64,000 nucleotides of DNA from Herbinix luporum (GTDB lineage Bacteria > Bacillota > Clostridia > Lachnospirales > Lachnospiraceae): assembly GCF_900070325.1 (NCBI RefSeq), contig NZ_LN879430.1:1047379-1111378 (forward strand), in the 5' to 3' direction. The notes beneath the pieces were generated by a model that saw only the letters and a program-made list of their open reading frames with translations, did not search any database and had not been told where the DNA came from. The position numbers and the translations under genes were made by a program. Position 1 is the first letter of the stretch. The number at the start of each line of letters is the position of its first letter. Positions 46,387 to 56,038 of the stretch are shown here, piece after piece.

Positions 46387-47298
46387 TTATCCTGCAGCTT
46401 CTGTCACCTTTTGAATATAGTCAGTTATTTTAATGGGACCTTCTAATATTTCTCTTCCCACATATAGGGTACGGTCCGGTTTAATCATTATGGACCACCT
46501 AATTAAAGCTATGGCGCCATTAATTATTTCAATTCCTGTAATACATCTTGGATGAACACAGCTGCCGTCATTAAAATACGGAATATCTCCCGGTTTTGGA
46601 AAAACCGGTCTGTGAGTGTGGCCGGTTATGATGGCCTGATTATTCTTTAAGGACCAATCGGCAATTCTTTTTTCTACCTTGCTTTTTCGTACACTGTTTT
46701 TTGAAGCACTGGTGGGGTCCCTAATGCCAATTAATTCTAAAGGCCTCCAAATATACCGAACCAAAAATCTTGATAATCTCCAGAAGTTATCATTTATCAA
46801 ATCTCCCTGATGACCATGGGTAAGGAAAATCTGATATGGGGCATCCTTATATTCTAATATTAGGCCTTCTGTTATTTTAATCCCTGGAAAAAGAGGCATG
46901 GTAGAATTTCTACTGTCACAAAAGAAGGAATTACATTTTGTTTTTGAGTATTTAGGATTTTTTTTAACTATATCATGATTCCCATATATCATATAGAATC
47001 TTCCTGCCTTATAAAATTGAGACATAATCCAAAACACATCACTATAGGTACTTATTATGTCATCAATTTTGCGATTTTCCCACAGTTCATCCCCGTCACC
47101 TAATTCTATATAAGTAAATCCCCTTTCATAATAGTATTGTAATGCTGCAATAAAAAGATTTTGGTTATTGTAGAAATTATCTGACCATCCCCCGTCTCCT
47201 CTATGACAATCACTCATAATAATAAATCTAGAATAATCATCGAAGTATATCTTAGGAGAAGAGGATAGAACTTGTGTTAATCGCTTAGAGACACCCAT
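46387..47298 (-). CDS. Calcineurin-like metallophosphoesterase
   Basis: A 303-residue metal-dependent phosphatase. All motifs are seen in order: MSDCHRGDGG (Asp, His), ELGDGDELWE, YGNHDIVKK, LTHGHQGDL and ITGHTHRPVFP. There is no signal peptide. The substrate is unknown; relatives act on nucleotides, phospholipids or phosphoproteins. The start follows GAGGAGGA and lies four bases after the stop of the DUF4474 gene, so the two form an operon. Confidence 0.88.
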   Translation of the reverse strand: MGVSKRLTQVLSSSPKIYFDDYSRFIIMSDCHRGDGGWSDNFYNNQNLFIAALQYYYERGFTYIELGDGDELWENRKIDDIISTYSDVFWIMSQFYKAGRFYMIYGNHDIVKKNPKYSKTKCNSFFCDSRNSTMPLFPGIKITEGLILEYKDAPYQIFLTHGHQGDLINDNFWRLSRFLVRYIWRPLELIGIRDPTSASKNSVRKSKVEKRIADWSLKNNQAIITGHTHRPVFPKPGDIPYFNDGSCVHPRCITGIEIINGAIALIRWSIMIKPDRTLYVGREILEGPIKITDYIQKVTEAAG

Positions 47299-47302
47299 AG
47301 CA

Positions 47303-48331
47303 TCATTCCTCCTCTTCTAAATCCTGAATTTTAAGAAAACCTTTAATTTTATTGAAGGATTCAAATACTTGATGAGGTTTACCCATGTTTATAATATGAT
47401 TGTACATATGAGGTGCCTGCTGCTTAATGTGGGCAATTTTATCAAGGGTATTGACATAGGAGGAAGTAAGATAGTGGTAGGCTTCACAAAAAGAACGATT
47501 ATTACTCTGCATAAGATTTACGGTTAAGGGATTCTTAGTAAAGGGCTGCTGGGTATGGGGTTTGTCAAAATGTATAAATACCCGTCTACCCTTTAACATA
47601 AATTCATCTTCTCCGTAACCTGTTTCTTTAAGTCCCCTTACAAAGGCCTCGGCCATTTGTCGATTATGCATATCTAAAACAATATCCATAGTAAGTTCTG
47701 AGGGTTGGGAGAATTCACCCAGTTTAAAACCGGTTAGCCACCAATGATATCCACTTCTGCTTAGTAAAACATTTCCGTTTTTTTTAAGGGTAAAAGACAT
47801 ATTGATTCTGTCTTCATCCTTTACACTATAATAAAAGGTACCGTTAAATATACCGGGAATATTAATGTCCGGGGCGGTGGTATAGTATATGCCGACTTCC
47901 CCCCCTGTTGTCATGCCGTATTGACCCTTCCAAAATTCAAGAAGCCACTTCTTTCCATTATATCTAAAATGAATTGGTTCACAGTCAATTATCATGCTTA
48001 AGGTAGCACTGGCCTCATCATAAAGTCTGCAATATCCGAATTTTCTTTGCCAGCATTCATTTAGGGAATAGAATATGTCCTGTGAAGGATCATAGGCAAA
48101 GCCAAAGAGTTTCAAATCCTTATTTAATTCTTCCAATTGCTCTTGGTCGCTTCCGATTACATCTGTAATCGGGCGGACCACTATATTTTCATCGGCCTTC
48201 TTCTTTTTATTTCTACGGAACCTTTTAAACAATGAAACTATAAGGATAAGAATTAAAATAAGTGAAATTATAAGAATTTTATTTTGAATATATAAATTCC
48301 ACAGGAATAAAAAAATGCCATTATCACCCAT
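47303..48331 (-). CDS. DUF4474 membrane-anchored protein
   Basis: A 342-residue protein with one N-terminal helix (about 17-35) and a basic stop-transfer (RFRRNKKKK), then a DUF4474 domain: GFAYDPSQDIFYSLNECWQ, MIIDCEPIHFRYNGKKWLLE and FWKGQYGMTTGGEVGIYYTT. Function unknown; the family is frequent in Lachnospiraceae. It is paired with a phosphoesterase gene immediately downstream. The start follows AAAGGAG. Confidence 0.85.
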   Translation of the reverse strand: MGDNGIFLFLWNLYIQNKILIISLILILILIVSLFKRFRRNKKKKADENIVVRPITDVIGSDQEQLEELNKDLKLFGFAYDPSQDIFYSLNECWQRKFGYCRLYDEASATLSMIIDCEPIHFRYNGKKWLLEFWKGQYGMTTGGEVGIYYTTAPDINIPGIFNGTFYYSVKDEDRINMSFTLKKNGNVLLSRSGYHWWLTGFKLGEFSQPSELTMDIVLDMHNRQMAEAFVRGLKETGYGEDEFMLKGRRVFIHFDKPHTQQPFTKNPLTVNLMQSNNRSFCEAYHYLTSSYVNTLDKIAHIKQQAPHMYNHIINMGKPHQVFESFNKIKGFLKIQDLEEEE

Positions 48332-48529: not shown

Positions 48530-49606
48530 TTATTCGATTAAAGTTATAGCCTCTTTAAAGCCCTTAGTGTAATGGACTTCATAGTCGGAAGTAATAAAGA
48601 TGCCATAGGTATCGGGAATGCTCTCTAGGAGTTTTATTCCTTCATCAAGTCCCAGTGCAAAACAGCTGGTACTTAATCCATCTCCGTCTACTGAAGCCTT
48701 TGATATAATGGATACAGAGATAAGATTATTATTATAAGGATATCCTGTTTTTGGGTTAAGAATATGGTGGTAATTATTTCCTTCAAAGGTAAAATAGCGT
48801 TCATATACTCCGGAGGATACCACTGACATATCATTAATTTCCATAATAGCTATGGTTTCATTTCTGTCGGCATAGGGTTTTTGAATACCAACCTTAAAGT
48901 ATGATCCGTCCGGTTTTGTACCAAGGCAGAGGACATTTCCACCAAGATTTATAATGGCACTATTTACACCCTGTGATAATAAATATTCTTTAACTTTATC
49001 AGCAATATAACCTTTGGCAATGGCTCCCAAATCCAATCTAATGCCTTCCTTTGCAAAGGTTAGTTTATTTCCTTCTAAATGGATATTTTTATAATCAATA
49101 TAGGCCAGTGCCTTATTAATTTCTTCCTTACTAGGAAGTCTAGGATTAATACCGGTAAAATCCCATAGGGATGAGACAGGAGCAATGGATATATCAAATG
49201 CTCCATCTGATAATTTGCTATAATATAATCCATAGGCAATTAATTCAGACATTTCATCAGAAATATAGTAGGTTAAGCCCTCATGGGGAGCGGTTTGATT
49301 ATTTATAGCATATAGTTCACTTTCCGGATCTGTTCTACTGAATATTTTTTCATATTTTTTTATAAGCTCCATACATTGATCCAATATGGCTTCTTCCTGT
49401 TTGTCATATATTGATATACTTATAAAAGTATTTAGCAGAAAGGCAGACTTACTAATAAATTGAGAGTCAACATCTTTTTTATCATTGTTTATAGCCGGTT
49501 GGCAGCCGGTTAAAATTATTGTAATTAAATATATTGGTAACAAGACAAAAATCAGCTTATGTTTTGCCATTACACCTTTTTTATTATAAAACTTTTTCTT
49601 AATCAT
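48530..49606 (-). CDS. apbE: FAD:protein FMN transferase (ApbE), lipoprotein
   Basis: A 358-residue flavin transferase that attaches FMN through a phosphoester to Thr in target proteins such as RnfG and RnfD. A lipoprotein signal ends in IILTGC (Cys35), placing it outside the membrane. Family motifs: LNTFISISIYD, RTDPESELYAIN, DLGAIAKGYIADK with the catalytic-site region, INLGGNVLCLG and HHILNPKTGYP. The ATG at 49606 follows AAGGAG. It is divergent from the rnf-like operon, whose products carry suitable acceptor motifs, so it is the obvious maturation enzyme. Confidence 0.95.
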   Translation of the reverse strand: MIKKKFYNKKGVMAKHKLIFVLLPIYLITIILTGCQPAINNDKKDVDSQFISKSAFLLNTFISISIYDKQEEAILDQCMELIKKYEKIFSRTDPESELYAINNQTAPHEGLTYYISDEMSELIAYGLYYSKLSDGAFDISIAPVSSLWDFTGINPRLPSKEEINKALAYIDYKNIHLEGNKLTFAKEGIRLDLGAIAKGYIADKVKEYLLSQGVNSAIINLGGNVLCLGTKPDGSYFKVGIQKPYADRNETIAIMEINDMSVVSSGVYERYFTFEGNNYHHILNPKTGYPYNNNLISVSIISKASVDGDGLSTSCFALGLDEGIKLLESIPDTYGIFITSDYEVHYTKGFKEAITLIE

Positions 49607-49753
49607 AAATCTCCTTGATATTTTTTTCAGAATTTTTTTTGTTTATTATTACAATGCTATTATTGTAAGTTTATATATTTTCTATGTCAAGAAGCAATAG
49701 TTTAAGAGGAGAATAAATGGAATTATATGCTAATATCTTTATAATTTATTTGC

Positions 49754-49782
49754 TTGACAATTAATCTTGTCCATATTATGAT
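49754..49782 (+). promoter_or_regulatory. Promoter of the rnf-like operon
   Basis: TTGACA (49754-49759), a 17-bp spacer, TATGAT (49777-49782), with about 100 nt of leader before rnfC. The rest of the 286-bp divergent gap shows no other element. Confidence 0.75.
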
Positions 49783-49892
49783 ATCCACAACTAATATAGT
49801 TAGAAACCTTGGAATAATGTGTTTATAGGTATTTGTATATATAATAATGTCAAACTTTTAACAAGTAAGAGATGGCAGGAGGGCTATTAGTT

Positions 49893-51248
49893 TTGAAGAA
49901 TTATTTTCACGGTGGAATCCATCCGTCCGATGGTTCTGATAAATCATTAAGTAATCAAATACCGATACGTAAGTTCTTGCCTAAAACAGTGGAGATTTCT
50001 ATGAAACAGTCACCAAATAGTATCTGTACTGCAATAGTTAAGGAAGGTGATAAGGTTTCAAAGGGAGAACTAATAGGAAAACCCACTGGTTTTAGCTCTG
50101 CCAATATCCATGCAAGTATCAGCGGAACTGTAACCAAAGTTATAAAAAGCAAGGATGACAAGGATAGGGAATTTGATATTGTTGTTATTCAATCGGATGA
50201 AAGTAATACAGATAGTTTAGATACAGCTGGCGGATGGGAATACGAAAGTAGTCTTGTAGACCTTTCGGCCTATACTAAAGAAATAATTATAGCTAAAATG
50301 GAAGAAGGCGGCCTGGTAGGCATGGGAGGCGCCGGTTTTCCTACCCATGTAAAATACCAATCAAAAGAAATAATTAAATATATCCTTATTAATGGGGCAG
50401 AATGTGAACCATATCTTACCTGTGACCATACCCTTATGAGGGAACAGGGCTATGCAATTATTAATGGGGTACTCTTATTTGTTAAGGCCTCAGGTGCAAA
50501 AAAGGCAATTATATGCTTTGAGGATAATAAGCTTGATATTGCAAAAGATTTCGAACAGATTATTTCAGGAAAAGAGCTTCCTATAGAAATTAAGGTACTT
50601 CCCACTAAATATCCTCAGGGAGGGGAGAGGCAACTGGTGGAGGCTGTACTTGGTATGGAAGTTCCGGCAGGAGAATTGCCCACTAGTATTAGTACTATAA
50701 TAAATAATGTAGGTACAGCAAAAGCCTTGGCAGATATTGTACTTAAGGATGAACCCCTAATTTCCCGTGTGGTTACAGTTACGGGAATGGTGAAAGAACC
50801 ATGTAATTACTTAGTTCCCATAGGAACAAGATTTAGGGATTTAATTGATATGTCCGGGGGATTTACATCTAAGATAAGCAGGGTTATAGAAGGTGGGCCT
50901 ATGACCGGTCGCAGTATACAAATCGGTGGCGCCCTTGATGACTTAGAGGGAAGTGTAGCTAAGACCACTTCCGGTTTATTAGTACTGGAGGATAGCTACA
51001 AAATAGAATCTCCATGTATTCGCTGCGGAGAATGCGAGAGAATATGTCCTGCAGGCCTTGCCCCCTTTAAAATTGATTTTGCTGCTTTAGAAAATGATAT
51101 CACTTTATGTGATAAATTATATGCTACTGAATGTATCAGTTGTGGTAGTTGTTCCTATGTCTGCCCGGCAAAAAGGGAATTGGCATATAGAATAACAGAG
51201 GCCAAAAATGAAATTTTCAGACTGAGACGAGAGCGGGGGGCTAAATAA
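49893..51248 (+). CDS. rnfC: RnfC, NADH-binding subunit of an Rnf-type complex
   Basis: A 451-residue peripheral subunit on the cytoplasmic side. GLVGMGGAGFPTHVK and LINGAECEPYLTCDHTLM form the NADH/FMN site related to complex I; a soluble-ligand-binding domain follows, and two [4Fe-4S] clusters lie at CIRCGECERICP and CISCGSCSYVCP. Nothing key is missing. The start was set at TTG 49893: GGAGGG lies nine bases upstream and the product begins KNYFHGGIHPSD as in other RnfC proteins; an in-frame ATG at 49872 has no good site. First gene of the operon, next to rnfD. Confidence 0.94.
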   Translation: MKNYFHGGIHPSDGSDKSLSNQIPIRKFLPKTVEISMKQSPNSICTAIVKEGDKVSKGELIGKPTGFSSANIHASISGTVTKVIKSKDDKDREFDIVVIQSDESNTDSLDTAGGWEYESSLVDLSAYTKEIIIAKMEEGGLVGMGGAGFPTHVKYQSKEIIKYILINGAECEPYLTCDHTLMREQGYAIINGVLLFVKASGAKKAIICFEDNKLDIAKDFEQIISGKELPIEIKVLPTKYPQGGERQLVEAVLGMEVPAGELPTSISTIINNVGTAKALADIVLKDEPLISRVVTVTGMVKEPCNYLVPIGTRFRDLIDMSGGFTSKISRVIEGGPMTGRSIQIGGALDDLEGSVAKTTSGLLVLEDSYKIESPCIRCGECERICPAGLAPFKIDFAALENDITLCDKLYATECISCGSCSYVCPAKRELAYRITEAKNEIFRLRRERGAK

Positions 51249-51249
51249 T

Positions 51250-52215
51250 ATGAAGCTAAAAAGTGGAAAACAGTTACATGATGTAAGTCCTCATATTGTT
51301 AAGAATTGGTCAACAAAAGAAATTATGCAGGATGTGGTTATTGCCCTTATGCCTGCCTTCTTAGGTTCTATCTATTTCTTTGGCCTTAATAGCCTAATCC
51401 TTGTTTTAACTGCCGTTACAAGCTGTGTATTATCAGAATATATATGGCAGAAGATAAGAAAAGAGCAGCTGACAGTGGGTGATTGGAGTGCTGTAGTTAC
51501 CGGTATTCTCCTAGCCTTTAATGTTCCTTCCACTACTCCTATTTGGGCTGTCATGGTAGCATCGGTATTTGCCATAATTGTGGTAAAACAGTTTTTTGGT
51601 GGTATAGGTAGTAATTTTGCCAATCCTGCTTTAATGGGAAGAGCATTGCTGTTATATCTTTGGCCTGCCCAGATATCCAATTATATAACAACCAACCATT
51701 CCGGTGTCGATGCCGTAAGCTCACCCACAGTTTTGGGTATGTTAAAGAGCGGTTCAGAGATTAGCCAATTTTCTAAATGGGACATGTTTATAGGAAATAT
51801 ACCCGGCTGCCTTGGAGAAACCAGTGCCTTATTACTTTTAATAGGCTTTGCTTACCTTTGTTATCGGAAAGTAGTTAATCTTGCAGCAGCAAGTTCTTAC
51901 GTTCTTACAGTATTATTGGTAACCTTTGTATTTTCTAAAGATGGATTTTTTAAAGGTGATATATTAACCAACCTATTATCGGGAGGACTAATCTTAGGAG
52001 CCTGCTTTATGATGACCGATTACGCTTCAGTTGCCCCTAGAATAAAAGTAGTCTTAGCAATAATTGCAGGTCTTATTACGGCAGGAATAAGAATTTGGGG
52101 TATGTTACCGGAAGGGGTAAGTTACGGTATATTAATAGCAAACTGTTTATCGGGAATTACTGAAATGATTATAAAACCCCATATTTATGGTGTAAAGCTT
52201 AAAAGCAAAAAATAA
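51250..52215 (+). CDS. rnfD: RnfD, membrane flavoprotein subunit
   Basis: A 321-residue membrane protein with about nine to ten helices. Conserved segments are FNVPSTTPIWA and FGGIGSNFANPALMGRALLL. The covalent FMN acceptor is probably Thr160 in DAVSSPTVLGM, a variant of the usual DxxSGAT. It starts one base after the rnfC stop codon. Confidence 0.93.
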   Translation: MKLKSGKQLHDVSPHIVKNWSTKEIMQDVVIALMPAFLGSIYFFGLNSLILVLTAVTSCVLSEYIWQKIRKEQLTVGDWSAVVTGILLAFNVPSTTPIWAVMVASVFAIIVVKQFFGGIGSNFANPALMGRALLLYLWPAQISNYITTNHSGVDAVSSPTVLGMLKSGSEISQFSKWDMFIGNIPGCLGETSALLLLIGFAYLCYRKVVNLAAASSYVLTVLLVTFVFSKDGFFKGDILTNLLSGGLILGACFMMTDYASVAPRIKVVLAIIAGLITAGIRIWGMLPEGVSYGILIANCLSGITEMIIKPHIYGVKLKSKK

Positions 52216-52275
52216 GTCATACTTAAGAATGCTTTAGTAATTTAATAGATTATTAGAAAAAGTGAGGGAATTATT

Positions 52276-53271
52276 ATGAAAGACAACAGATTAAAAGGTA
52301 TTATTGCTTTGGCAGTAGTAACAGTATTGGCCTTTGGTATTATTTATGGCAGCAAAATATTAGTTAAGGATGAAGCAAATAATCAGAAAGATGTAGGTCA
52401 GAATGATGAAAATCTTCCCGGCTCAATAGATGTATCAGGAGCAGAAGGTATTGTTTCTGCTAGAGAGATTACCGATGATGCCGGCAATATTACAGCCTAC
52501 TCAGTAGTTGCTGAGGCTACCGGTTTTGCTACAAAGCCTGTTACCATGGAAGTTGTATTTGAAAATGATGCTAAAACAATCAAGGAATTAAAAGTAGTAA
52601 GCCATGCCGAAACTCCCGGTTATGGTCAAAAAATGGAAGAGGAAAGTTTCCTAAATCAATTTAAGGGAATTTCTGCTCCTATTTATCTTAGGGGAAAAGC
52701 TCCTGTTGCAGATACAAGCAACCAAGATGTTACTGCCCCTACACAAGAGGGTTACCAAGACGGAATTTATCGTGTAGAAGCCGATGAAGTAGATAACAAG
52801 GGTTATCTATATATGCTTACAATTAAGGTTGAAGAAGGTAAAATAACCTCTCTGGTGTTTGATTCCATGAACAGAGAAGGGGAATATAAAAGCTACCTGT
52901 CAACTGTAGGGGAATATGTTATGACTGATGATGGTCCTACATGGAAAGAACAAGCGGATGCCTTAGCTAACTATGTCTTGGAAAAACAATCTATTGACGG
53001 ACTCACCGTCGATGAGAACGGTAAAACCGATGTGGTTTCCGGGGTAAGTATCAGTATTAATAATTTCCTTGACCTGGCCAAGAAAGCTCTACAAATGGCT
53101 AAAACCGGTGAAGGGGCAGAAAGTACAGGCTCAGATGAGGCCGGTTATGTAGACGGTGATAGTGGTGAGGTAGGAGAAATTGACGGTATATCCGGTGCAA
53201 CTGTTACAAGTAATGCTATAATTAAGCTTGTTAATAATGCATATGATTTTATTTCTGATTATGCTAAATAG
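52276..53271 (+). CDS. rnfG: RnfG-like FMN-binding protein with an inserted second FMN_bind-like domain
   Basis: A 331-residue protein with an N-terminal anchor (about 7-28) and an extracytoplasmic FMN-binding fold. Residues 70-131 match the first half of RnfG (SHAETPGYGQKMEEESFLNQ), and the FMN acceptor Thr309 in DGISGATVTS lies far away at 303-312. Between them, residues about 155-275 look like a second FMN_bind domain whose acceptor region reads DVVSGVSIS, with Ser258 where Thr would be. Ordinary RnfG proteins are about 200 residues, so the insert is unusual. Residues 276-300 form an acidic, Gly-rich linker. The ATG follows GAGGGAA. Confidence 0.85.
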   Translation: MKDNRLKGIIALAVVTVLAFGIIYGSKILVKDEANNQKDVGQNDENLPGSIDVSGAEGIVSAREITDDAGNITAYSVVAEATGFATKPVTMEVVFENDAKTIKELKVVSHAETPGYGQKMEEESFLNQFKGISAPIYLRGKAPVADTSNQDVTAPTQEGYQDGIYRVEADEVDNKGYLYMLTIKVEEGKITSLVFDSMNREGEYKSYLSTVGEYVMTDDGPTWKEQADALANYVLEKQSIDGLTVDENGKTDVVSGVSISINNFLDLAKKALQMAKTGEGAESTGSDEAGYVDGDSGEVGEIDGISGATVTSNAIIKLVNNAYDFISDYAK

Positions 53272-53380
53272 TAATATTATTTTAAAAACTTAAACTAATA
53301 AATAATTTTATGAAAATAATAAATTAATTTGTAAATAATTTATTATTGGAAGATACCAAGGAATAAAAAAGAAAGGAGAG

Positions 53381-53403
53381 TATGATGTAGTAACTACATC
53401 ATA
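53381..53403 (+). promoter_or_regulatory. Hairpin with a two-codon minicistron before the RnfE/A-like gene
   Basis: A strong AAAGGAG is followed by ATG ATG TAG (53382-53390), which forms the left arm of a perfect 10-bp hairpin (TATGATGTAG-TAA-CTACATCATA). The true start codon, ATG 53414, has only AGGGA. Possible translational control; see findings. Confidence 0.5.
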
Positions 53404-53413
53404 TAGGGATTAT

Positions 53414-54193
53414 ATGAAAGCAAGATATCCGGTGGAAGCATATGCACTGGCCATGGTGATTTTTTCACAAAACATGAGGATAGCCCTAATAACCGGTATA
53501 TTGATCCTCTTTATAAGCACTTTAGGTCTGGTGATAGATGGATTGGTAAAATGCAATCTTCCAAAATGGAGTAGGAATTCAAGTATAATAATCCTTATGG
53601 TATCCTTAACCTTTTCCCTATTTCAGATTGTATTAGTAGCTGTCTTAGGGTATAAAATTAATGATACAGCATCCATATTCCACATCTTCCTAGGCATACT
53701 TATTGCAAAACATATTATTAATAAAGCAGATGAAATAGATTATAATAGCCTTCTATTAGAGGGAGCCGGGGCATTTGCCATGCTGCTAATTATCTCTCTT
53801 ATAAGGGAGTTTATGGCAGAGGGCTCAATTTATGGGTATAAAATATTGGATTTTAATCTAAAATCCTATGGTTTTTCACAGGTAATAATGGGATTTTTGC
53901 TGACAGGACTGGGTTTAGCTCTTCTTAATAGGATTTTCTACCATAAGGAGAAAGAAAAAATTAAAACAGACAGCATCTTTGTAATATTGCCTGTGGTACT
54001 ACTTGAACAGCCTTTTACCATAGACGGGATTGATCCTTCTGTTAGTATGCTTATAATCATAATAATTGTTTTGATTTTACTATATTCCATTAGAAAACAT
54101 CTTGTCTTTTCAAGACTAAGTAAAGGGATTAAGAATTTACCTGCCGAGCTTGTTTCTGCAGGAATGGTATATATGATTTTATCTATGTTTTAA
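53414..54193 (+). CDS. Rnf-Nqr-type membrane protein, apparent RnfE-RnfA(C-terminal half) fusion
   Basis: A 259-residue protein with about eight to nine helices. Residues 6-175 line up by eye with RnfE, including LLEGAGAFAMLLIISLIREF and EGSIYG, then a GLGLALLN segment. Residues about 186-259 line up with the last half of RnfA: FVILPVVLLEQPFTIDG, then SIRKHLVFSRLSKGIKNLPA and ELVSAGMVYMILSMF. The cysteines that bind a [2Fe-2S] cluster between RnfA and RnfE are absent: LGLCP reads AMVIFSQN, TNC in the RnfE part reads IAKH, and TNC in the RnfA part reads LEQP. The only Cys (47) lies in a loop. It would form the membrane core of the complex but not by the usual cluster. Confidence 0.7.
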   Translation: MKARYPVEAYALAMVIFSQNMRIALITGILILFISTLGLVIDGLVKCNLPKWSRNSSIIILMVSLTFSLFQIVLVAVLGYKINDTASIFHIFLGILIAKHIINKADEIDYNSLLLEGAGAFAMLLIISLIREFMAEGSIYGYKILDFNLKSYGFSQVIMGFLLTGLGLALLNRIFYHKEKEKIKTDSIFVILPVVLLEQPFTIDGIDPSVSMLIIIIIVLILLYSIRKHLVFSRLSKGIKNLPAELVSAGMVYMILSMF

Positions 54194-54225
54194 CAAATAA
54201 ACAATCAGTAAGGTAACATAATTAT

Positions 54226-54252
54226 GGAGCAAGAATTATCTTGCTCCTTCTT
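54226..54252 (+). other. Intra-operon hairpin
   Basis: GGAGCAAG-AATTAT-CTTGCTCC (54226-54247) followed by TTCTT, between the RnfE/A-like gene and the NusG-domain-II gene. A partial terminator or mRNA-processing site. Confidence 0.6.
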
Positions 54253-54268
54253 ATGGTAAGGATGATAT

Positions 54269-54634
54269 ATGAAAAAAAATGATTTATATTTAATAGTCGG
54301 TATCTTAACACTTATTGGAATTTCTTTTTTAATAATTAACTTATACAAAACATCCGGTAGTAAAGTTATAATAACTGTCGATGGTAAGGAGCATAAAGTT
54401 TTTAATTTAAAGGAAGATACCATTTATAAAATTGAACATGATAACGGACATTGGAACACAATTGAAATAAAGGATGGATATGTAAAAATGCTTGATGCAA
54501 GCTGTCCCGATAAGCTTTGTGTAATGCATAAAAAGATTCAAAATAATAACGAATCAATTACATGTCTTCCCAACAAGGTTGTTCTTCGTATAATCGATGG
54601 TAAGGAAAAAGGTCCTGATGCCGTCGCCAATTAA
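54269..54634 (+). CDS. NusG domain II protein (EetA-like)
   Basis: A 121-residue protein with one N-terminal membrane helix (about 7-25) and an outward domain of the NusG-domain-II type: DASCPDKLCVMHKKI and ITCLPNKVVLRII, with Cys79, Cys84 and Cys99. Such proteins accompany Rnf-like and flavin-based extracellular electron transfer genes; as I recall, Listeria EetA has this fold. The exact role is unknown. The ATG follows AAGGAT. It is about 30 bp upstream of the EetB-like gene. Confidence 0.8.
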   Translation: MKKNDLYLIVGILTLIGISFLIINLYKTSGSKVIITVDGKEHKVFNLKEDTIYKIEHDNGHWNTIEIKDGYVKMLDASCPDKLCVMHKKIQNNNESITCLPNKVVLRIIDGKEKGPDAVAN

Positions 54635-54665
54635 ATGCCAAGATATTTTACTAAAAGGAGTTATA

Positions 54666-55157
54666 ATGAATTCTAGAAAAATAGCCTCATATGGCTTATT
54701 TATTGCACTGGCTTTTATATTTAGCTACATAGAAAGCCTTATTCCTATGCCCTTTGCCCTACCGGGAATGAAACTGGGATTAGCAAACTTAGTAATAATA
54801 GTAGCTTTATACGGTATTGGGGTTAAGGAAGCATTTGTCTTATCAATGGTACGAATTCTTTTGGTAGGATTTACTTTCCGGGATCCCTCTACTCTTATTT
54901 TTAGCTTTGCAGGGGGAATACTTAGCTGGCTACTGATGACTGTATCTGTAAAATTCAAGTTATTTAGTATGGTTGGAGTCAGTATCCTTGGAGGAATAGC
55001 CCATAATATAGGTCAGATTATAGTAGCAATGATATATGTAAATAACCCCAGTCTTATATATTATTTGCCCTTATTAATGATAAGCGGTCTTGTAAGCGGA
55101 GCACTTATAGGAATACTTGCGGCATTAGTAATAAAGAGGCTAAAAAAGTTTTTATAA
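54666..55157 (+). CDS. Gx transporter family protein (EetB / HepS component I-like)
   Basis: A 163-residue membrane protein with five to six helices, of the family annotated as Gx transporter or heptaprenyl diphosphate synthase component I. FSYIESLIPMPFALPGMKLG and LANLVIIVALYG are the signature, followed by GGIAHNIGQIIVAM. It resembles the small S-component type of membrane proteins and EetB of the Listeria electron transfer system. The ATG at 54666 follows AAAAGGAG; the frame is open upstream without a site. Last gene of the rnf-like operon. Confidence 0.82.
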   Translation: MNSRKIASYGLFIALAFIFSYIESLIPMPFALPGMKLGLANLVIIVALYGIGVKEAFVLSMVRILLVGFTFRDPSTLIFSFAGGILSWLLMTVSVKFKLFSMVGVSILGGIAHNIGQIIVAMIYVNNPSLIYYLPLLMISGLVSGALIGILAALVIKRLKKFL

Positions 55158-55194
55158 AAAGTCGGATGCAATAAAGCCATCCGGCTTTTATTTG
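55157..55194 (+). terminator. Intrinsic terminator of the rnf-like operon
   Basis: AAAAGTCGGATG (55157-55168) pairs with CATCCGGCTTTT (55178-55189; one G-U pair), followed by ATTTG. Confidence 0.8.
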
Positions 55195-55312: not shown

Positions 55313-56038
55313 ATGGTCAGACAGATAATAAAAATTGATGAAGAATTATGTAACGGTTGCGGTCTATGTGTAACCGCATGCCATGAAGATGCCATAGGTA
55401 TAGTAGAGGGTAAGGCTAAGCTTTTAAGAGATGATTATTGTGACGGATTAGGCAACTGCCTGCCTGTTTGTCCCACTGGTGCATTAAGCTTTGAAGTAAG
55501 AGAGGCCTTGGCATTTAATGAAGAAGAAGTAAAGAAAAACATGGAAAGGAAAAAATTAGAGGAAGCTAATTCAAAAACCATGGGATGCCCCGGTTCTAGG
55601 ATGATGAACCTACAAAAAGATAAAGTCCAGGAGGAAGTTAGCTTAGATACAAGTTCTACACCTATGGCCTCTATGCTCAGGCAATGGCCGGTACAAATTC
55701 AACTGGTTCCAGCTAATGCGCCTTATTTTGACGGAGCTAATCTTTTGGTTGCAGCAGATTGTACTGCATACGCTTTTGCTAATTTTCATTCCTTTATGAA
55801 AGATAAGATAACCTTAATCGGATGTCCTAAGCTAGATGAGGCAGACTATGGAGAAAAACTTACTCAGATAATAAAAAACAACAATATTAATAGTATTACA
55901 GTAATACGTATGGAAGTACCTTGTTGTGGTGGTATGGTAGAAGCAGTAAAGACTGCCATATTAAATAGCGGAAAGTTAATTCCTTGGAGAAGGGTTACAC
56001 TTTCTACCGAGGGAACAATACTTGAAGATACTAAATAA
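55313..56038 (+). CDS. Iron-sulfur protein with two N-terminal [4Fe-4S] clusters
   Basis: A 241-residue cytoplasmic protein. The N-terminus is a two-cluster ferredoxin: CNGCGLCVTACHEDA and CDGLGNCLPVCPTGA, the second with a longer first spacing. A GCPGSRMM segment and a C-terminal domain with CPKLDEADYGEKL and MEVPCCGGMVEA follow. Such proteins are widespread in anaerobes, often near redox complexes, but their partner is not established. It lies just after the rnf-like operon, behind a terminator, and could donate electrons in place of the missing RnfB; this is speculation. The ATG follows AGGAGG. Confidence 0.8.
   Translation: MVRQIIKIDEELCNGCGLCVTACHEDAIGIVEGKAKLLRDDYCDGLGNCLPVCPTGALSFEVREALAFNEEEVKKNMERKKLEEANSKTMGCPGSRMMNLQKDKVQEEVSLDTSSTPMASMLRQWPVQIQLVPANAPYFDGANLLVAADCTAYAFANFHSFMKDKITLIGCPKLDEADYGEKLTQIIKNNNINSITVIRMEVPCCGGMVEAVKTAILNSGKLIPWRRVTLSTEGTILEDTK

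Follow-up and report, generated by a model that had tools for sequence, protein, structure and literature searches.

The 64,000-nucleotide stretch of Herbinix luporum DNA analysed here (contig NZ_LN879430.1, positions 1,047,379 to 1,111,378; referred to as the window) contains a seven-gene unit, in which apbE is divergent from rnfC, rnfD, rnfG, a gene for a membrane protein (referred to as X), eetA, and eetB (Table 1). We propose, with a probability of roughly two in three, that this unit encodes a non-pumping, quinone-free, one-way conduit from NADH to extracytosolic flavoproteins, derived from a cut-down duplicated Rnf complex. The window cluster is a second, reduced Rnf paralogue, because a complete canonical rnfC-D-G-E-A-B operon is present elsewhere in the source genome (a single contig of 2.61 Mb, 99.98% complete), at 293.5-298.6 kb (locus L003, 7526-12646). 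An initial annotation, made from the DNA letters only, had placed the seven genes, the divergent apbE, and a terminator-like hairpin after eetB as they are found here, and had noted the absence of RnfB and an enlarged rnfG. Family searches confirmed the former: no RnfB was detected in the window cluster using Pfam and other profile searches of the cluster proteins. The latter corresponded to an insert at residues 135-299 of RnfG, which contains a PplA-type flavin domain.

On the basis of profile comparisons and a structural model, X is a merged and truncated RnfE/RnfA, and no ordinary RnfE. The Pfam search gave no match for X (53414-54193), the match to the NqrD model was weak (E=0.0016), and the Rnf-Nqr family model recognised only the canonical E and A proteins in the source genome, not X. 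A profile of 30 X proteins aligned with RnfE at residues 17-185 of the X encoded in the window (hhalign E=3e-12), and with RnfA at residues 205-256 (hhalign E=1.4e-6), which correspond to no more than the last 52 RnfA residues; the cysteine-bearing first three quarters of RnfA were missing. Parts of X also matched, unprompted, the neighbouring rnfE and rnfA of one genome in a class-wide search. Because canonical operons place rnfE next to rnfA, X would have arisen most simply through an in-frame deletion joining the two. The AlphaFold2 model of X had a predicted local distance difference test score (pLDDT) of 92.2 and a predicted template modelling score of 0.90; a model from 18 close homologues was poor (pLDDT 64), and the value rose to 92 when distant X proteins and RnfE were added. 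Modelled residues 3-182 superposed on NqrD and RnfE with VIA-align Z values of 12.3-14.6 (unrelated chains score Z 4-8), and three helices were added to this RnfE/NqrD-like part. A 5e-50 profile match of the model alignment to solved RnfE was set aside as circular because that alignment contains RnfE rows, and the independent test of X-RnfE kinship was the comparison with the X-only profile.

In the alignment with RnfE, neither of the two cluster cysteines was kept in any of the 31 X proteins, versus 18 of the 19 RnfE proteins: the first column lies in a three-residue deletion (Cys-Pro-Thr) of the X proteins, and His most often stands in place of the second cysteine. Because both columns are empty, X has no known way of holding the intramembrane [2Fe-2S] cluster. 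The initial annotation had described one Rnf-Nqr-type membrane protein, with the cluster cysteines lost and a separate A missing, and had named a predicted structure of an ordinary RnfE as evidence against its reading. The cysteine loss held in 31/31 X proteins, and the modelled structure, with its three added helices, was not that of an ordinary RnfE. The remaining description was correct in part: the fold is RnfE-like and no standalone RnfA occurs in the cluster, while the protein is actually RnfE plus an RnfA remnant, the C-terminal quarter of RnfA being fused to the E-like part.

The NADH side of the complex is intact. All eight cluster cysteines of RnfC (382, 385, 388, 392, 421, 424, 427, and 431) were present in 30/30 sequences, and the flavinylation motif D-x-x-S-S-A-T-V-L was kept in the RnfD proteins of relatives (29 X-clade sequences). 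RnfG retained its own flavinylation motif (DGISGAT at 303), and the insert carries a second one (DVVSGVS) before it. This insert matched PDB entries 2KZX (2.6e-18) and 3O6U (6e-7), the latter being a flavinylated protein of C. perfringens, as well as the PplA model (3e-11), and was absent from the single-flavin RnfG proteins of relatives.

The arrangement of these genes is not due to chance. The order D-G-X-EetA-EetB was kept in all 17 relatives, Herbinix hemicellulosilytica among those sharing the unit, and the order RnfC-RnfD-flavoprotein-X in 11 of 12 further genera, one of these 11 having fused C and D, as the initial annotation had anticipated for other Lachnospiraceae. Within the genus, 16 of 33 genomes had X, as did one genome of another family; a family-wide sample of 299 genomes yielded 14 with X, among which 12 other genera were represented (E<1e-18). 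Outside Lachnospirales, no X was detected in samples of 391 (class) and 398 (phylum) genomes, three weak matches in the phylum sample being RnfE-like frames of about 200 amino acids. X was not found on plasmids. The RnfD proteins of X units formed one clade with a support of 100/100 and a long stem, and the units are, on this evidence, of single origin. Both the patchy presence and an internal stop in the whole-genome match at locus G337 would be expected of a decaying, functionless duplicate of the Rnf operon; however, the open frames are full-length, residues such as R131-E132 are invariant among X proteins, the RnfC cysteines are complete, and the gene order is fixed across more than a dozen genera at an X identity of 22-70%, which make decay the least probable of the alternatives considered here.

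The flavoprotein slot between rnfD and X was variable: RnfG with 0, 1, or 2 inserted flavin domains; a small FMN_bind protein at L122 and L123; a triple FMN_bind protein at L126; and, exactly between rnfD and X at L125 (1268-3115), an N-terminally anchored enzyme that combines FMN_bind with a flavocytochrome-c/fumarate-reductase-like part. At L127 (9677-12337), RnfC and RnfD were fused into one polypeptide of 886 amino acids. The natural swaps in the slot point to a core of C, D, and X that passes electrons to interchangeable extracytosolic flavoproteins. We slightly favour the view that RnfC-RnfD-X represents an undescribed class of exporter, in which the cluster-free RnfE-RnfA fusion would be the docking scaffold for these flavoproteins; no description of this module was found in the open literature searched, most subscription journals lying outside it. 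An extra protein of 351 amino acids resembling RnfG/TonB-C was found at L126 (5513-6568), where it separates the X operon from a canonical rnf operon.

In the proposed mechanism, a duplicated Rnf complex would have retained its NADH-side half and been remodelled to export electrons in one direction. NADH would reduce the flavin mononucleotide (FMN) and two [4Fe-4S] clusters of RnfC. The flavins of RnfD would then carry the electrons over the membrane to the covalently bound FMN of RnfG; from there they would reach the second, inserted FMN domain of RnfG and finally extracytosolic acceptors, the candidates being a flavocytochrome-c-like lipoprotein (L129), a PplA-like lipoprotein (L130), and external oxidants. 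X would act as a structural partner in place of the RnfE/RnfA pair, with no [2Fe-2S] relay; electrons from ferredoxin would have no entry. Ion pumping has probably been lost, because the missing [2Fe-2S] cluster is the proposed redox switch behind the conformational change of the pump (PMC12174285). Loss of the ferredoxin side and the subunit merger probably converted an ion pump able to run both ways into a wire that carries electrons in one direction. A different kind of NADH pump that is still ion-coupled, with X as the ion path and electrons leaving via RnfG, would be consistent with the retained RnfE/NqrD fold of X and the intact RnfD with its membrane flavins, but is highly improbable given the absence of the proposed redox switch from X (PMC12174285). 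The cofactor chain could in principle also run in reverse, extracellular donors reducing NAD+ via RnfG, RnfD, and RnfC. At flavin potentials, NAD+ reduction is uphill without ion coupling, and the fumarate-reductase-like terminal reductase in the slot at L125 fits export, so that electron uptake appears very unlikely.

Several observations weigh against the one-way conduit. The RnfA/E pair that X replaces is what RnfG docks against in canonical complexes (PMC12174285). RnfD of the window reads DAVSSPT, with Pro for Ala; the same substitution occurs in some canonical RnfD proteins, and a loss of the flavin site, suspected from this motif, was rejected because relatives keep the motif. Since the extra flavin domain is missing from RnfG in approximately half of the close relatives, the long flavin path is not essential. 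L128 has rnfD and X without a flavoprotein between them, as the sole exception. Furthermore, canonical rnfA/rnfE were present in 32 of the 34 X-bearing genomes examined, and mixing of the X set with canonical subunits may therefore occur. In such a case, this C, D, G, and X would be alternative subunits that swap into or dock on canonical RnfABE, ferredoxin still being used and the acceptor or regulation being changed by the swap; the canonical rnf operon adjoins the X operon at L123, L126, and L128. This is, nevertheless, unlikely: X itself occupies the place of E and part of A, the whole extra C-D-G-X set stays together, the RnfD proteins of this set group in a separate, long-stemmed clade, and one of the two exceptions to the co-presence of rnfA/E, G280 (97% complete; the other, G017, is 85% complete), has the X cluster together with just one weak partial match to the RnfA/E family. 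RnfB was not found in the X clusters of relatives, save where a separate canonical operon adjoins. The initial annotation had named a canonical rnfA and rnfB elsewhere, co-evolving with the cluster, as evidence against its reading; half of this was encountered, since canonical rnfCDGEAB exists, while G280 has X without convincing RnfA/E.

EetB binds flavin adenine dinucleotide (FAD), resembles ECF-S subunits, and is required both for the export of FAD to ApbE and for the flavinylation of PplA; a clean deletion of eetA kept activity and had no phenotype, and eetB is found next to Rnf genes in 572 Clostridia genomes (PMC9973259). The source genome has a single copy of eetB. As a specific marker of X, EetB was rejected, because it is widespread in genus members without X, occurring in most of them, and also near canonical Rnf elsewhere; EetB alone is no marker of extracellular electron transfer. 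EetB is the most likely source of the FAD that ApbE needs for the two Rnf complexes and for other flavoproteins: FAD exported by EetB would be used by ApbE to flavinylate RnfD and RnfG, with the assistance of EetA. EetA and EetB are no electron carriers of the conduit. The NADH-electron conduit of the initial annotation was supported by the intact RnfC, the absence of RnfB and of the cysteines, the extra flavin domain (of a type known from the electron-transfer protein PplA), and the occurrence of the gene set in other Lachnospiraceae, but not as regards EetA and EetB as carriers (PMC9973259).

As for acceptors, fumarate-reductase-like FMN proteins take electrons from membrane components (PMC8238504). 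A lipoprotein of the source genome with FMN_bind and an FMN/FAD flavocytochrome-c-like domain (L129, 2415-4352) is a candidate extracytosolic reductase, and a second apbE lies beside a lipoprotein with two PplA-type domains (L130, 3289-5533), the latter being unrecognised by any Pfam or NCBIfam model. If the conduit operates as proposed, quinone-free fermenting Lachnospirales would respire extracellular or extracytosolic acceptors directly from NADH, which would explain extracytosolic flavin reductases or external acceptors powered by NADH in fermenting Lachnospirales without menaquinone synthesis. It would also be the second case, after NQR, of a duplicated rnf operon losing rnfB and changing function, and, as a natural Rnf/NQR mutant with the intramembrane cluster gone and the rest kept, would offer a direct test of the part of the cluster in pumping.

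The window unit resembles canonical Rnf in the eight cysteines of RnfC, the flavinylation motifs of RnfD and RnfG, and the order C-D-G-(E/A), and differs in that RnfB is absent, E and A are merged and truncated in X without the [2Fe-2S] cysteines, and RnfG has an extra flavin domain. Among the features defining the canonical complex, the motifs for NADH/FMN and two [4Fe-4S] clusters in RnfC and for covalent FMN in RnfD and RnfG are present, and RnfB and separate RnfA/RnfE with four cysteines are not. NQR/RNF-like systems consist of two genes, with RnfD fused to an NqrF-type NAD domain (PF00175) and lacking the flavinylation site, and their clusters occur mainly in Actinobacteria and the candidate phyla radiation (PMC8238504; PMC10979944). 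A one-way flow from NAD(P)H via an RnfD-like protein to an RnfG-like flavoprotein may be common to both, whereas here the predicted NADH module is RnfC, RnfD retains its site, and X is an additional component. No PF03116-PF00175 fusion was found: RnfD of the window matched PF03116 only, PF00175 was unmatched anywhere in the cluster (Pfam), and the relative at L127 fuses RnfC, not an NqrF domain, to RnfD. For Na+-NQR, descent from a duplicate of the rnf operon after loss of rnfB has been proposed (PMC4014512), and a similar origin by duplication and rnfB loss is proposed here. However, NQR acquired NqrF, and its D and E subunits stay separate and retain the [2Fe-2S] cluster, while the window cluster has RnfC with its [4Fe-4S] sites and fused D/E-type subunits, and has lost [2Fe-2S]; no NqrF-type match was detected in the cluster (Pfam), and RnfC keeps its eight cysteines, unlike NqrA, which has no clusters.

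Extracellular electron transfer of the Listeria type has in common with the window unit ApbE, EetA, EetB, and PplA-type FMN domains, and the combination of ApbE, EetB, and a PplA-type FMN domain was found here. The Listeria system relies on a type II NADH dehydrogenase together with demethylmenaquinone, in contrast to the entry via RnfC/RnfD proposed here; Ndh2 was not among the cluster genes, the rest of the genome not having been searched for it. The demethylmenaquinone route is unlikely in this organism because the complete source genome lacks a UbiA-family prenyltransferase of its biosynthesis (PF01040), which was detected in 14/14 control genomes. RNF clusters with multi-flavinylated RnfG are defined by RnfB, and the diversion of electrons to external acceptors has been proposed for them (PMC8238504); more than one FMN domain in RnfG is shared, whereas here RnfB is absent and the extra domain is inside RnfG, before the original motif. 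Operational definitions of ApbE-dependent systems need RnfB, NqrF, the RnfD-NAD fusion, or other genes (PMC8238504), none of which was seen in the window cluster, and the unit falls outside the tested definitions of RNF, NQR, and NQR/RNF-like clusters. Because published definitions need genes unseen here, such clusters have likely been overlooked or filed as incomplete Rnf.

Table 1. Genes and predicted signals of the reduced Rnf unit (window positions).
Feature	Position	Strand	Evidence
apbE, lipoprotein-type FMN transferase, divergent from the operon	48530-49606	-	PF02424, 1e-86
Predicted apbE promoter, TTGACA-17-TACAAT	49662-49690	-	Consensus match 11/12
Predicted rnfC-operon promoter, TTGACA-17-TATGAT	49754-49782	+	One exact occurrence in the window, 0.08 expected
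rnfC, NADH/FMN domain and two [4Fe-4S] clusters	49872-51248	+	Complex1_51K, 1.5e-44; RnfC_N, 8e-22
rnfD, flavinylation motif DAVSSPT	51250-52215	+	PF03116, 2e-94
rnfG, inserted second FMN domain, motifs DVVSGVS and DGISGAT	52276-53271	+	FMN_bind, 3e-19
Insert in rnfG (residues 135-299)	52678-53172	+	PplA/3O6U-type FMN-binding domain at 161-280
X, membrane protein of 259 amino acids: RnfE-like 1-182, RnfA C-terminal part 205-256	53414-54193	+	
Strong hairpin (9 bp, T-rich tail) separating X from eetA	54226-54247	+	Predicted
eetA, NusG domain II protein	54269-54634	+	PF07009, 2.6e-28
eetB, Gx-transporter-type ECF-S subunit	54666-55157	+	PF07456, 5e-41
Terminator-like hairpin after eetB	55173-55188	+	Predicted

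The two predicted promoters are divergent, and both lie between apbE and rnfC. The exact pattern of the rnfC-operon promoter occurred once in the window versus 0.08 expected, and TTGACA...TATTATxATA was also found upstream of rnfC at L024, L026, and L029. The start of eetB is most likely 54666 rather than 54597, as judged from the Shine-Dalgarno sequence AGGAG upstream of that ATG and from relatives. The hairpin between X and eetA possibly sets the transcription of eetAB lower; an Rfam search of 46-58 kb gave no match to an RNA family. Directly past the terminator lies a ferredoxin-type protein (55313-56038), whose C-terminal part is unassigned and which is found near the cluster in a few relatives. 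This iron-sulfur protein was rejected as a substitute for RnfB: it is near the cluster in 4 of 18 loci, its weak RnfB score came from ferredoxin motifs alone, and it is located past the terminator.

On the other side of the cluster, apbE adjoins in 8 of 18 loci (the window counted). Beyond apbE, a calcineurin-like phosphoesterase and a DUF4474 protein (46387-48331, minus strand) stay beside the cluster in most genus members, even where apbE is absent. A phosphoesterase near the second apbE (L130, 920-1900) resembles, by eye, that at 46387-47298 of the window, and the occurrence of such neighbours at two apbE loci may be more than chance.

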